64,000 bases of DNA. It comes from a filamentous cyanobacterium ESFC-1 (GTDB lineage Bacteria; Cyanobacteriota; Cyanobacteriia; Cyanobacteriales; Spirulinaceae). Positions within the stretch are counted from its first letter, which is position 1, and every line of letters starts with the position of its first letter. The notes beneath the pieces were generated by a model. That model worked only from the letters and a program-made list of their open reading frames with translations, was not told where the DNA came from and searched no databases. The stretch is taken from positions 5,278,806 to 5,342,805 of the forward strand of contig KB904821.1 in NCBI GenBank assembly GCA_000380225.1, written 5' to 3'. Positions 35,343-63,536 of the stretch are shown here, one piece after another. Both the position numbers and the translations under genes were made by a program.

Positions 35343-35471
35343 TATAGTCATTCCAATTAAGTTCCGTACATTCATGCTTAATTTTCTGAGTCCGTGAAAA
35401 CGGACTTTGTTACATTAGCCCCGGATTTCAATCCGCGGGCGGGCTGTCGGTTCTTATTTAAAATTACTATA
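35343..35471 (+). mobile_element. TATAGTCATT inverted-repeat element (MITE-like), copy 1
   Basis: A 129-bp unit with ends TATAGTCATTCCAA and TTAAAATTACTATA. Inside are two palindromes: GTCCGTGAAAACGGAC and CGGATTTCAATCCG. The reverse complement of the whole unit recurs at 61497-61627. A related partial unit (GTCTGCGACGGCAGAC and TAGATTTTTAATCTA) lies directly to its left at about 35298-35343. The TA at each end suggests the TA target duplication of IS630/Tc1-type elements. Confidence 0.7.
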
Positions 35472-58398: not shown

Positions 58399-58550
58399 TT
58401 CAGTTATCAGCGATTAAGGGGCTCCTCGGCAATCGGCTCCTCGGCAGTCGGGGGGTTTCTTCAGTCATCAGTTATCAGTAAACAGCCTCTAAGGGGCTCC
58501 TCGGCAATCGGCAATCGGCAGTCGGTGTGTAGGGGCGGGGTTTCCCCGCC
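58399..58550. repeat. Partial composite-repeat ends after the acyl-CoA synthetase gene
   Basis: Two pieces beginning CAGTTATCAG and continuing TAAGGGGCTCCTCGGCAATCG match, in inverted orientation, the 3' end of the composite repeat. The second carries the GTAGGGGCGGGGTTTCCCC hairpin (about 58530-58552). Confidence 0.65.
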
Positions 58551-58731
58551 CAATAACCAATAACCAACAACCAATAACCAACAACCAACAACCAATAACC
58601 AACAACCAATAACCAACAACCAACAACCAACAACCAATAACCAATAACCAATAACCAATAACCAATAACCAACAACCAACAACCAATAACCAACAACAAA
58701 TGACCAATGACTAATGACTAATGACCAACCA
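58551..58731. repeat. Long AATAACC/AACAACC heptamer array
   Basis: About 20 units of AATAACC or AACAACC in perfect 7-bp register, followed by ATGACCA/ATGACTA units. It ends some 50 bases before the CBS-CP12 start. Long open frames on the opposite strand are this repeat read as Trp-Leu-Leu-Val-Ile-Gly-Tyr, not genes. Confidence 0.93.
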
Positions 58732-58780
58732 CACTGATACTCTAAAAAACAGCCATCGACATCCAATGTAATTATCAGAC

Positions 58781-59392
58781 ATGAAAGCATCCGAGATTAT
58801 GACCAAAGATGTCGTCACGATTCGCGGTGCTGCGACCGTGGCCGACGCTGTTAAACTCATGAAAGAAAAAGGGTTGCGATCGCTTGTGGTGAAGCGTCGT
58901 AGCGCAGATGATGCTTATGGCATTGTCACCGAAACGGATATCGTCTACAAAGTCACCGCTTACGGCCTCGACCCCAAAACCGTCCGGGTCTACGAAGTGA
59001 TGACCAAGCCCTGTATTGTGGTCAACCCTGACTTAGAAGTTGAATATGTAGCCCGCTTATTTGCCAATACCAAAATCCGCCGGGCCCCGGTGATTAAAGA
59101 CACCTTACTCGGTGTCATTTCGATTACCGATATTCTCACCAAGAGCGATTTTGTCGAACAACCCAAGTCCGTAATCCTCCAAGAAAAAATCATCGAAGCC
59201 CGCGATAGCGCTCGTCAAATCTGTGCGGAGAAAGGGCCGACCTCTCCTGAATGCGCCGCCGCTTGGGATGTGGTTGAAGAATTGCAAGCCGAAGCTGCCC
59301 ATCGTCGCGACCAAAGACTCGAAAAAACCCATTTCGAGGAATATTGCGAAGAATACCCCGATGCTCTCGAAGCTCGGATGTACGACAGTTGA
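58781..59392 (+). CDS. CBS-CP12 fusion protein
   Basis: A 203-residue regulator: two CBS motifs (about 1-60 and 70-125) that would bind adenylates, then a CP12 domain (about 130-203). CP12 inhibits phosphoribulokinase and GAPDH of the Calvin cycle. The CP12 core AWDVVEEL is at 161-168, and the first cysteine pair is C148 and C158. In the C-terminal pair C189 is present, but the second position, expected nine residues on, is Ala198. The usual C-terminal disulfide therefore cannot form, so redox control must differ from stand-alone CP12. It is monocistronic by context. Confidence 0.93.
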   Translation: MKASEIMTKDVVTIRGAATVADAVKLMKEKGLRSLVVKRRSADDAYGIVTETDIVYKVTAYGLDPKTVRVYEVMTKPCIVVNPDLEVEYVARLFANTKIRRAPVIKDTLLGVISITDILTKSDFVEQPKSVILQEKIIEARDSARQICAEKGPTSPECAAAWDVVEELQAEAAHRRDQRLEKTHFEEYCEEYPDALEARMYDS

Positions 59393-59649
59393 ATCCTGCC
59401 AATCGGGACAGTTAATGTTAATCAAGGCAAAAGGCGGATTAGAGTTGCGCCTTTTGCTCATTTCTTTAAGAAATCTTCCAAAACGGCGCGATCGCGCTTC
59501 CCTTCTTCTTTTCTAAGCCATCATGGGGTCACCACCACCCATTGCCATTCGTTTAAAATCGAGTAGGATAAGGAATACTTTTAAGTAAGAACATCGCTCT
59601 CCCCATACGGCAAACTCAACGGCGAAGTAGTAATCAAGGATCATTGTTC

Positions 59650-61371
59650 ATGCAGCCTCCTGACCATCGCTCAGACACCACCAGGGTTAATTCTCCTCGG
59701 AGTACCGAAGAAGCCTTACAAGCACTGACTCACGAAATTGAATCACTGCGTCAGGACATCAGCGTTCAACTTGACCGCGATGTCCGCTGGCTGCAAGGGG
59801 AAAAAGGACGGCTCATGCAAGAAATCGACCAACTGCGCCGCCAACACCAAAGCCTCCAGAATAATTATCAAACCACTTTATCTCAGCAACAAATCGCGCA
59901 ACAGCAACTCTGGGCCAAACAACTCGCTCACGCCCTCGCCACTCAGTTTCAAGAGCAGTTAATGGCGCGATTGAATGGGGTAGCCCCCTCTCCGAATCGC
60001 AGCGCCAATTCCCCCAATTTAGACGGCTACAGCGAAAATGTACAACGGTTGCTGGTGTCCCTCGACTCGACCATGAGTCAAACCTTTGCAACCCTGCAAC
60101 AAGACCTCACCAGCTATCAAAGCACCTTGTCGCAGCAGTTGAACCGGATGTATAGCATCGAGTCCCAAGGTGAAGTCATCCTCGAAACGCTGGTAAATCG
60201 TCTGATTGAGCGTTTACAAGAATCTGATTCGATCGAGGCTCCCCTTCCGAGTGCCACCAATCCGGCTTCTTTACCCCAAGTCACCCTCGAAAAACCCGAA
60301 CCGCAACCCACCCCACCCCCCCAACCTGCGCCCCCGAGTCCCTCAGCCAAACCCAAAGCGCCCCCGGCTTCTCAGTGGCGTACAGGCATTATTTTCGCAT
60401 TGTTGGCTTCTTTTGCCTTTTCTCTACAAAATGTCGTCACCCGCATTATTTTATTGCCCAGTACCTTGTTTGGCTTGGTTAATATTGGCGGGATTGTGGC
60501 TCCGAGTTTAGGTAATTCTATTTTTATTCTGTGGTTGCGGATGTTAGTGGTGGTTCCTTTGGTGTCGTTGCTCGGCACAAATGGCTATCAAGTGGATAAT
60601 CAACCGTTTTGGCTTGATGTTCAAAAATTATTCAGCCGGGGCGATTTAAAGCTGAAGTTAATCGTTTTAGCAAGCGGTTTCTTTCTTTTTGCTTCCCAAA
60701 CCCTGGCTTATATCGCCTTTGGTAATATGGCGGCGGGGGTGGTGACTACGTTGATTTTGACTTATCCGATTATTACCATTTTCTTAGCTAGTGTTTTGTT
60801 CAACGATCGCCTCACTTCCTTTCGTATTATCGCCAGTGGGGTGGTGTTTCTAGGGATTGTCTTGATCGCGATTCCCTTTGGAGCCGAGATTAATTTTTCT
60901 CTGGTTGGTATTCTGACGGGTTTGGGGTCTGGGGTGGCTTTAGCGATTTGCGTGATTTTCTCGCAGATGGCATTTCGCCAAATTAATCCAATTCCCTTCA
61001 CTTTGGTGCAGTTTGGCGTGATTTTCGTCTTTTCTTCCGTATTTAGCCTGATTGGTACGATCATTAATCCTGAATTTATCGAAATTCCGCCAGGAACGTT
61101 CTCAATTTTGTTGTTAGCGGGGATTGTTTTGGGTCTTACCACGCTCATGAGTTATTTGTTCCAGAATTTGGGGATTCGCTTTGCTGGAGCAGCTTCTTAT
61201 TCGATTGTGGCGAATACGGGCCCGGTGATGACTTCGATTTTGGCGTTTTTGATGATTGGTGAAGTGTTGACCTTTGTACAAGTGTTAGGAATGCTGATTG
61301 TCACGGCAGGGGTGATTGCTTTGGGCGTTAAGCGCTTGCGGGATGAAACGCAAGCGGCTAAAGCGGGTTGA
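59650..61371 (+). CDS. DMT/EamA transporter with long coiled-coil N-terminal domain
   Basis: A 573-residue protein from the ATG at 59650, nine bases after AAGGA; a TTG two codons earlier is also in frame. Residues about 15-105 are a Gln-rich coiled coil (RRQHQSLQNNYQTTLSQQQI), 105-200 a second helical part, and about 200-240 a Pro-rich linker. From about 245 there are ten membrane spans in two EamA halves, as in drug/metabolite transporters. The usual EamA protein is only about 300 residues. The coiled coil should lie in the cytoplasm and may oligomerise or bind a partner. The substrate is unknown. Confidence 0.83.
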   Translation: MQPPDHRSDTTRVNSPRSTEEALQALTHEIESLRQDISVQLDRDVRWLQGEKGRLMQEIDQLRRQHQSLQNNYQTTLSQQQIAQQQLWAKQLAHALATQFQEQLMARLNGVAPSPNRSANSPNLDGYSENVQRLLVSLDSTMSQTFATLQQDLTSYQSTLSQQLNRMYSIESQGEVILETLVNRLIERLQESDSIEAPLPSATNPASLPQVTLEKPEPQPTPPPQPAPPSPSAKPKAPPASQWRTGIIFALLASFAFSLQNVVTRIILLPSTLFGLVNIGGIVAPSLGNSIFILWLRMLVVVPLVSLLGTNGYQVDNQPFWLDVQKLFSRGDLKLKLIVLASGFFLFASQTLAYIAFGNMAAGVVTTLILTYPIITIFLASVLFNDRLTSFRIIASGVVFLGIVLIAIPFGAEINFSLVGILTGLGSGVALAICVIFSQMAFRQINPIPFTLVQFGVIFVFSSVFSLIGTIINPEFIEIPPGTFSILLLAGIVLGLTTLMSYLFQNLGIRFAGAASYSIVANTGPVMTSILAFLMIGEVLTFVQVLGMLIVTAGVIALGVKRLRDETQAAKAG

Positions 61372-61462
61372 AGTATTTGAGGGAGAGGGGGTGATTGAGT
61401 TGTCAGCGATTAAGGGGCTGTGGGGTGCGTTAACGAAATGTAACGCACCTTCTTCTAATAGA

Positions 61463-61828
61463 GTTGACAACTCCCTATTACCAAAAATTCTGGGTCTATA
61501 GTCATTCTAAATAAAAACCGACAGCCCGCCCGCAGATTAAAATCTGGGGAACCAACACGGCAAAGTCCGCTTTTACGGACTCAGAAAATTAAGCATGAAT
61601 GTACGGAACTTAATTGGAATGACTATAAAGCCCCGTCCTGTCTTGCCGAGCTACCAGGTGCTACTCGCGCTACAAGGTGCGCCTGTCTTGTCGAGGGTAA
61701 GAGGGGCTGTGTCCGCCACCTGCGGGCGGACTTTATATGCCCCGTATCGGGGTAGGAGTTTATACGCCTGCGCTTAGTCTCCCTATGACGCGAGAATCCC
61801 CGACCGTTCACGGCGGGGAGTTGTCAAC
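61463..61828. mobile_element. 366-bp element with 13-bp terminal inverted repeats, IS200/IS605-like right end
   Basis: GTTGACAACTCCC at 61463-61475 and GGGAGTTGTCAAC at 61816-61828 are exact inverted copies. The right end (GAATCCCCG, loop, CGGCGGGGAGTTGTCAAC, about 61793-61828) resembles the subterminal hairpin and TCAAC-type end that follow tnpB in IS200/IS605 elements. The interior right part (61628-61790) is GC-rich and structured but has no transposase or TnpB ORF. A second element (61497-61627) is inserted in its left half. It may be a tnpB-less derivative. Confidence 0.5.
61497..61627 (-). mobile_element. TATAGTCATT inverted-repeat element (MITE-like), copy 2
   Basis: A 131-bp unit with ends TATAGTCATTCTAA and TTGGAATGACTATA (13 of 14 matching). 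It is the reverse complement of the unit at 35343-35471, including the GTCCGCTTTTACGGAC and CAGATTAAAATCTG palindromes and the GTACGGAACTTAATTGGAAT end. It lies inside the 366-bp element. Confidence 0.75.
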
Positions 61829-61843
61829 TTCATATCCCAGAAA

Positions 61844-63334
61844 CTATTGCATCAACGCCGCACCCCGCCGATATAACTCCTCAGCATAATCCGTCCAAGT
61901 CCCTTGTCCCCAATAGCGGAAACAACTGGTTTCGAGCAACAGTAGATACAGTAAGGCTTCTTGGTAATCTGCTTGTTGGGTCACGCTGTTGTCTTGTTGC
62001 ACTAAGGGGTCATATTTTTGGTGGAAAGCCGCACTCAGTTGTGTCATGGGGCCTAAAACGTTTTCGTAGCCTTTCACCCAACTCAGGTCATTTGTCCAGG
62101 ATGCACCGTCTACATGAAATTGATGGTCGGTTTCGCTTAACGTTTGGATGGTTTGGTTAACCACTTCTGGGGTGACGTTGTTGAGGTCTACTCGCTGCCA
62201 AATTTTATGCTGTCCCACCCCTTGACATTGGGGGTAATCTTCGGGCTGGACTCCGGCAGCTTCGAGCATTTCCAGGTATTCTGTGCCGTTGAGTCCGACA
62301 ACTCCTGTCGTATTAATGCCGTTGTCCTTGAGGTCGTACCAAACCGGGGAGAAGTCGCGGGGAAATTCGTTCATCATTACGCCACCATTTTCCCCGTCGG
62401 CAATTTGACTAACGCAGGAGGGAACAGAAACATCGCCAATTTGCTGTTTACCGCGGCCTTTGGCTTCGTGATAGGGTTGCATTTGGGCAACTAATTTCGT
62501 ATCAGAACCTTGGGTTTTAATCAGGGCGGTAATGCTGATGGTTTCGCCGTTACTATTACGCGCGACAAGGCGATTGGGGATGTATTTATCGTCGTGGTGA
62601 AGTCCTGACCCATCAAGTCGTTCAACGGAGTGTTCCTGGACGAGTAACCAACGATAGCCGCATTCTTTCAGGGCTTTGATGTATTCAAAAAGGGTGTCGG
62701 GATGGTTGGGAAGGGCCATTTCTGGGGGAGAAAAGCCTTTGACGCGACGTAAGGCTTCGGGGCCAAAAATAGATGCAAAATAATGTTGCCAGGCTTGGAT
62801 ATGCAGTTTCAAGTCGGGAATGGGAGTGGAGGGGATGACGGCGTGACTCCACATCGTTCCGAGCCATTCTACATGGGAATAGTATTTTTCGTCACAGGTG
62901 ATTTTTTTAAGGTTGTCGAGAACATCATGGCGGTTCATTTGCAACAAGCCCCAGAGGAGATTACCGGAGTAATCGAGCATAATGCGGGGATTGCAGCCGT
63001 TCGCGACGAGTTCGGGGATAAATTCACCCATACGACTGTAACACCAAGCAAAAACGCTGGCGTTGTGGTTGTCGCCTTCCCCTTGATGTTCAAACATATA
63101 TTGCAGGTTACAGATTAATTCGCCGTTGTTTCCTGCGGGGACGGTGGGTTGGTGCATGTGTAATGCACAGGCAAATCCGGCGGAGATTTGGTCTAGGTTG
63201 AGGTTGCTGTAGGGTAGAAAAACGGGGTCGTTATGATTGGTAATTTGCTGAATTTGGGCATCTTCTCCGCAGATGTTGGGCATTCCGTTGCGGATGGCTT
63301 CTAAGTTACTGCTGTTGAGTGTTGTGGCAGTCAT
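61844..63334 (-). CDS. Glycoside hydrolase family 57 protein
   Basis: A 496-residue protein from the ATG at 63334, which has AGGGA nine bases before it; the frame extends 20 codons further but without a better start. The GH57 first motif is ALHMHQPTVPAG near residue 57, and GFSPPEMALPNHPD near 205 fits a later conserved region. GH57 enzymes act on alpha-glucans (amylase, branching, 4-alpha-glucanotransferase). This branch is common in cyanobacteria, where the exact activity is not established. It may act in glycogen metabolism. It is divergent from speA. Confidence 0.85.
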   Translation of the reverse strand: MTATTLNSSNLEAIRNGMPNICGEDAQIQQITNHNDPVFLPYSNLNLDQISAGFACALHMHQPTVPAGNNGELICNLQYMFEHQGEGDNHNASVFAWCYSRMGEFIPELVANGCNPRIMLDYSGNLLWGLLQMNRHDVLDNLKKITCDEKYYSHVEWLGTMWSHAVIPSTPIPDLKLHIQAWQHYFASIFGPEALRRVKGFSPPEMALPNHPDTLFEYIKALKECGYRWLLVQEHSVERLDGSGLHHDDKYIPNRLVARNSNGETISITALIKTQGSDTKLVAQMQPYHEAKGRGKQQIGDVSVPSCVSQIADGENGGVMMNEFPRDFSPVWYDLKDNGINTTGVVGLNGTEYLEMLEAAGVQPEDYPQCQGVGQHKIWQRVDLNNVTPEVVNQTIQTLSETDHQFHVDGASWTNDLSWVKGYENVLGPMTQLSAAFHQKYDPLVQQDNSVTQQADYQEALLYLLLLETSCFRYWGQGTWTDYAEELYRRGAALMQ

Positions 63335-63536
63335 AAATATTTTCCCTAGGGTGAGTGGGTGCGATTGAGTTTTAGAGGACTCCTCAGCACGCACGTTGTT
63401 GCGATCTTACCGATAGATGTTGTCGGACTTGGAGATTTGAAGGAATCCTAAAGGTTCTCCGGGGTTTCCACGGTTAAAAATTTGTACCAAATCGTTACCA
63501 TTGATGGGTATAAGCTATTGAGGAATGCCGTTAGTT

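Follow-up and report, generated by a model that had tools for sequence, protein, structure and literature searches.

IS608 TnpA requires just the hairpins at the ends of the element, and IS608 itself terminates on the right in TCAA and carries AAAG/GAAT guide motifs. Guide RNAs encoded apart from their nuclease are also on record: stand-alone omegaRNA loci for IscB were reportedly found in Ktedonobacter by Altae-Tran in 2021, and a related report by Meers in 2023 is said to concern IS605 elements of Geobacillus. The Ktedonobacter loci are like the units described below in being guide-RNA loci without an adjacent nuclease gene, but reportedly serve IscB rather than TnpB; unlike them, our units are defined transposable units with ends of the IS608 type.

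The target of IS608 is TTAC (PMC8612924). The palindrome-associated transposable elements (PATEs) of Haloquadratum walsbyi (PMC3119063) and Halanaerobium (PMC7290912) are IS605-derived. PATEs are like the unit studied here in their gene-less derivation from IS605, in the deletion of the core at repeats, in the lack of terminal inverted repeats and in the frequent insertion of MITEs or other small elements (PMC3119063, PMC7290912). In one Halanaerobium PATE-like unit described there, the final 58 nt of tnpB remain together with the entire right end. What sets our family apart from PATEs as described there is the retention, in dozens of sibling units, of an omegaRNA scaffold that is complete and covarying and stands shortly behind a promoter-like box.

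The unit lies in the window, that is, the whole stretch of 64,000 nt of the filamentous cyanobacterium ESFC-1 that was analysed. Its family resembles IS608 and ISDra2 with their TnpB-omegaRNA systems in the TTAC site (as in IS608), TCAA, GAAT, the right-end hairpin, stem 1 with its pseudoknot and a guide read from the flank; the window unit differs from both in having neither tnpA nor tnpB and a scaffold truncated at its 5' side. With a probability of roughly 0.85 we consider this unit to be a dead PATE, an IS608-like tnpB element whose core was lost at a TCGAG microhomology before a MITE inserted into it; we expect that intact siblings without tnpB would be moved by TnpA in trans and would borrow TnpB in trans, their guide being encoded in cis.

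Results

Ends and target site of the element

When the ESFC-1 genome (5.63 Mb) was searched with the 366 bp of 61463-61828, the matches formed two separate sets, one over query positions 35-165 (the MITE) and one over 225-366 (the right end). A left-end motif (TTACCAAAAATTCTGGGTC) was present at 66 sites with at most 3 mismatches, versus 2 for a reversed-pattern control. Left and right family ends were then paired, which resolved 62 separate insertion sites in this genome, with TTAC upstream of 56, TCAA at the end of 60 and GAAT within the last 60 nt of 60 copies; the motif used in this search itself contained TTAC, with up to 5 substitutions tolerated, and N stretches in several copies limit the counts. 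Since family sites follow TTAC and end in TCAA, the window copy runs from 61482 to 61827 (Table 1). It is IS608-like in having TTAC at 61478-61481, TCAA at 61824-61827 and no target duplication. The empty site predicted from these boundaries is CTCCCTATTAC-CTTCATATCC. In the empty-site comparison the best match on the GH57 side of the insertion was 74%, there being no close relative, and a scan of genome contigs through the GH57 protein returned cyanobacteria, none of them a near relative.

The earlier note had described the 366 bp as enclosed by exact 13-bp inverted ends. The repeat is real, and exact even over 14 bp (61462-61475 with 61816-61829), but its absence at other copies and the TTAC/TCAA boundaries led us to reject its arms as element ends. 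The left arm stops 2 bp upstream of the TTAC target. Its sequence (AGTTGACAACTCCCTATTAC) has no second occurrence in the ESFC-1 genome at up to 3 mismatches, and the inverted repeat is therefore private to the window copy. That the 366 bp are a single MITE, with these repeats as its true ends and an inverted-repeat-recognising transposase as its mover, would suit the exactness of the 14-bp repeat; it is hardly credible given that the left arm is missing from all other copies and that comparable copies begin at CAAAAATTC after TTAC and finish at TCAA. By our own rough estimate, the chance of finding 12 bp that match the reversed tip of the right end next to a left end is about 1e-4 over all copies, and the left arm may be what is left of a neighbouring copy in inverted orientation. 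Next to the element, at 61419-61453 of the window, lies a short palindromic repeat (GTGCGTTAACGAAATGTAACGCACC), similar copies of which number dozens in the relatives G013 and G002.

The 131-bp element that had been read as nested in the left half proved to be a MITE at 61497-61627. It is gene-less and multicopy, is flanked by a TA duplication, and has terminal inverted repeats of 23 bp that are 83% complementary. It sits between the TTAC cleavage site and the 5' arm of the left-end hairpin. A copy at G000:C1:3990841-3990971 is 100% identical to it, and because of this identity the MITE probably arrived late. Plasmid records held no match to the MITE or to a stretch of a second contig. A second, diverged member of the TATAGTCATT MITE family is found at 35343-35471 of the window.

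Table 1. Features of the element and its borders (window positions).
Feature	Position	Strand	Basis
Left arm of the 13-bp inverted repeat, outside the element; reversed copy of the right-end tip	61463..61475	-	private to this site
TTAC target site and predicted TAM; host DNA outside the element	61478..61481	+	TTAC before 56/62 family sites
Element proper, tnpB-less, internally deleted IS200/IS605 (IS608-like), 346 bp	61482..61827	+	comparison with genomic copies
Left-end tip CAAAAATTCTGGGTC	61482..61496	+	left-end motif search, ESFC-1 genome
Nested MITE, 131 bp, TA...TA ends, inverted repeats	61497..61627	.	about 30 genomic copies, one 100% identical
5' arm of left-end hairpin (AAGCCCCGTCC) and part of variable repeat array	61628..61695	+	identity over 68 bp with L130 and L145, units lacking tnpB
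TCGAG microhomology at the deletion junction	61691..61695	+	GTCGAG shared by the array and the 3' end of tnpB
3' part of omegaRNA scaffold and right end, tnpB-linked subtype with extra internal hairpin	61691..61827	+	84-89% identity to tnpB-linked right ends; R2 74.5 bits
Right-end hairpin (stem 4), with GAAT upstream at 61794-61797 as in IS608	61797..61819	+	
Terminal TTGTCAA: TCAA cleavage motif and 3' strand of predicted pseudoknot	61821..61827	+	TCAA ends 60/62 copies
Flank, would-be guide	61828..61847	+	TTAC-preceded match search

A covarying scaffold shared with tnpB copies

The right end had been assigned to the tnpB type of IS200/IS605 elements, and the lack of any tnpB-linked match to it had been named as a refutation. 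The ATCCCCG...CGGGGAG..TCAA hairpin is present in the window unit, and tnpB-linked copies exist: about 20 were found in the ESFC-1 genome, with this right end placed 3' of tnpB. The reading frame is intact in 8-10 of these roughly 20 linked copies, at 88-100% identity, one of them being the copy at C1:5388855-5390000. The family TnpB has OrfB_IS605, Cas12f1-like TNB and HTH_OrfB domains and matches the structure of ISDra2 TnpB (8bf8, E 2e-32). Only one full-length intact TnpA (Y1) gene in this genome scored above the family cut-off, a point against the mobilisation in trans proposed below; it is no more than a candidate for acting on this family. A locus at C1:2521-2523 kb with intact TnpA and TnpB was rejected as parent, its TnpB being merely 34% identical. 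The right-end pattern did not occur in viral contigs.

We aligned 26 right-end regions, taken from copies carrying tnpB (B) and from two sets without it, S (187-384 bp) and M (360-516 bp), and wrote the structure by analogy with the ISDra2 omegaRNA (PMC10097598) after a consensus fold of the alignment. The predicted fold consists of stem 1 with a GGGCA loop, stem 2 (CUCG/CGAG near -35), stem 3 and the right-end hairpin. It has in common with the ISDra2 omegaRNA a pseudoknot strand borne in the loop of stem 1, a stem 2 near -35 and the hairpin at the right end (PMC10097598). The GGGCA loop is predicted to pair with the terminal UGUC (GGCA/UGUC) as a pseudoknot; this pairing scarcely varies, its position and invariance being all that argues for it, and at L273, in a relative, GGACA with UGUCC replaces GGCA/UGUC.

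Over the 36 pairs of the scaffold, 93.5% of the cells are paired and 17 pairs have changed on both sides. None of 500 shuffles equalled this, and slid versions were 39-49% paired. Double changes affect 7 pairs when just the 12 S units are considered; some of the S-type compensatory changes may be older than the loss of tnpB, because S-like scaffolds are linked to tnpB in relatives G002 and G014. Within the scaffold, CCCTTG/GTCGAG-like alternatives swap, GTCGGGCAG to GCCCTTGCAG and CTCGTCGAG to CACGCCCTTG. An array of short repeats, CTTGTCGAGCTACAAGGTGCGCC and the palindromic GCGCCTTTCGGCGGCGCGGGG, which varies from 0 to several copies, occupies the loop of the left-end hairpin in many family copies (L130, L111 and L079, for example) and 61637-61690 of the window.

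Rfam gave no match in the window at its thresholds. A permissive search returned sub-threshold matches only, including HgcC at 12.8 bits over the right end (gathering score 50), which is a lead and no more; it is the 3' hairpin of HgcC that resembles the family right end. The known sotRNAs overlap the 3' end of tnpB.

Units without tnpB

The covariance model of the scaffold (R2) finds 94 places in the ESFC-1 genome, 66 of them at 60 bits or more. Of these strong matches 21 abut TnpB and 45, the window copy counted, are free of tnpB. In nearly all linked copies of this genome TnpB homology extends 18 nt into the match. R2 also finds the right ends of TnpBs that are 33-35% identical and were absent from model building, which provides an independent check of the model. 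In the relatives G003 and G009, 16 matches, nearly all of the linked ones, begin 18 bp after the zinc-ribbon domain of TnpB; those without this domain number 16/23 and 10/21, respectively, both upper bounds as the domain matches were chosen by eye near model matches. One unlinked match in the relatives, L318, retains a recognisable tnpB-like stretch upstream, by which it is a deletion derivative.

The compact units without tnpB measure 187-516 bp and consist of a left end, a promoter-like box, a complete covarying scaffold and a right end. Examples are G000 C1:2069790-2069977, 3090600-3090790 and 4892225-4892415, with about 40 further sites. With a whole scaffold and no adjacent tnpB they have the make-up of stand-alone omegaRNA loci, so that the locus type which the earlier note had conjectured for the window copy is represented among its siblings (45/66 strong matches) and not by that copy. 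The near-identical units L313-L315 of G003 comprise TTAC, the left-end hairpin, the promoter-like box, a spacer, the scaffold and the right end. In these three, as in the M units (L071 and L074, for example), the promoter-like box is separated from the scaffold by an extra conserved segment of about 150-250 bp.

Among the tnpB-free units of the ESFC-1 genome there are four pairs (188-468 bp) whose two members are identical in sequence and lie at different TTAC sites, which indicates recent movement without a tnpB of their own. For such movement the end hairpins alone would suffice, going by IS608 TnpA. The units might accordingly be plain PATEs, kept for recognition by the transposase, with the scaffold a passenger devoid of RNA function; the Haloquadratum PATEs can be ends only and appear mobile (PMC3119063). 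We regard this as rather unlikely, though a serious alternative: stems distant from the ends covary within the tnpB-less units, a promoter-like box stands shortly upstream of the scaffold, and core deletions have repeatedly spared the whole scaffold in two genera. We incline instead, at somewhat better than even odds, to the view that the approximately 45 units are mobile stand-alone omegaRNA elements of promoter, scaffold and ends only, which would parasitise TnpB and TnpA made elsewhere: guide-directed retention would stay in cis, and the nuclease would be supplied in trans. On this view the window copy is a decayed member.

The window copy

The window unit lies between the convergent genes for an EamA-like membrane protein (59644-61371, + strand) and GH57 (61844-63394, - strand), the stop of the latter being about 16 bp away. 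An ORF check found no tnpB reading frame in it. Over the 68 bp following the MITE it is identical to both L130 and L145, which are S units, and from the TCGAG at 61691 onward it resembles B right ends, including their extra internal hairpin. The core would have been lost at TCGAG, either through a deletion or through recombination with a sibling that has no tnpB, and the MITE would have inserted afterwards. Being gene-less, with IS605 ends and its core lost at a short repeat, the unit is a PATE. Elsewhere in the window, a degenerate tandem repeat at 58475-58790 produces spurious ORFs (LLVVGYWLLVIGYW) that overlap one another on the minus strand.

The core deletion took tnpB together with the promoter-like box, which in other copies comes after the left-end hairpin; it also removed the arm that closes the left hairpin, and stem 1 with its GGGCA. 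The scaffold is thus incomplete, lacking stem 1 and the GGGCA strand of the pseudoknot, and the ends are unequal: the right hairpin and GAAT are there, and the left hairpin has no closing arm. R2 scores the copy at 74.5 bits (E 5e-15), compared with 89-145 bits for complete B and S copies, and even this match relies on non-complementary array sequence forced into stem 1. Because stem 1, GGGCA, the promoter-like box and the hairpin arm are lost and the MITE separates TTAC from the hairpin, the guide and transposition functions are very probably gone, which would leave the copy dead in either role.

The same figures bear on the idea of a stand-alone guide-RNA locus still working at this site. 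Stems 3 and 4 are retained along with the right end, R2 matches at 74.5 bits (E 5e-15), and the right half, which still folds, might in principle be read by transcription entering from outside. We nevertheless consider such a locus very improbable, as the match reaches 74.5 bits only, stem 1 and GGGCA are missing and the promoter-like segment is deleted, whereas the ordered 116-nt scaffold of ISDra2 comprises stem 1 and the pseudoknot (PMC10097598). The would-be guide at 61828-61847 matches its own empty site alone; a guide aimed at another site of the ESFC-1 genome was rejected, since a search that tolerated 3 mismatches found no second matching site preceded by TTAC.

Discussion

The window copy is a case of ordinary decay, of the known PATE kind, in a family that is still alive. 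An intact unit of its family is made up of the left end, the promoter-like box, an omegaRNA scaffold of about 124 nt and the right end, and would draw its guide from the flanking DNA. We propose that TnpA acting in trans shifts the tnpB-less siblings among TTAC sites. The RNA transcribed from the sibling itself, in which the 3' flank serves as guide, would then be bound by TnpB from an intact copy. Once the unit has excised, this complex would cleave the TTAC donor site left empty, and repair would bring the unit back. Transcription of the siblings, binding by TnpB in trans and re-cutting of donor sites would together explain why tnpB was lost while the scaffold was kept: the nuclease can be borrowed, and the guide is needed in cis.

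In our incomplete coverage of the literature we met no statement that PATE-type units retain whole omegaRNA scaffolds, with covariation, downstream of a promoter. The siblings suggest that PATEs are often complete guide-RNA units, beyond end-fragments, and that one TnpB could serve many scattered guides. If this is true, the split between a guide in cis and a nuclease in trans in TnpB-driven retention would be directly testable in a cyanobacterium.
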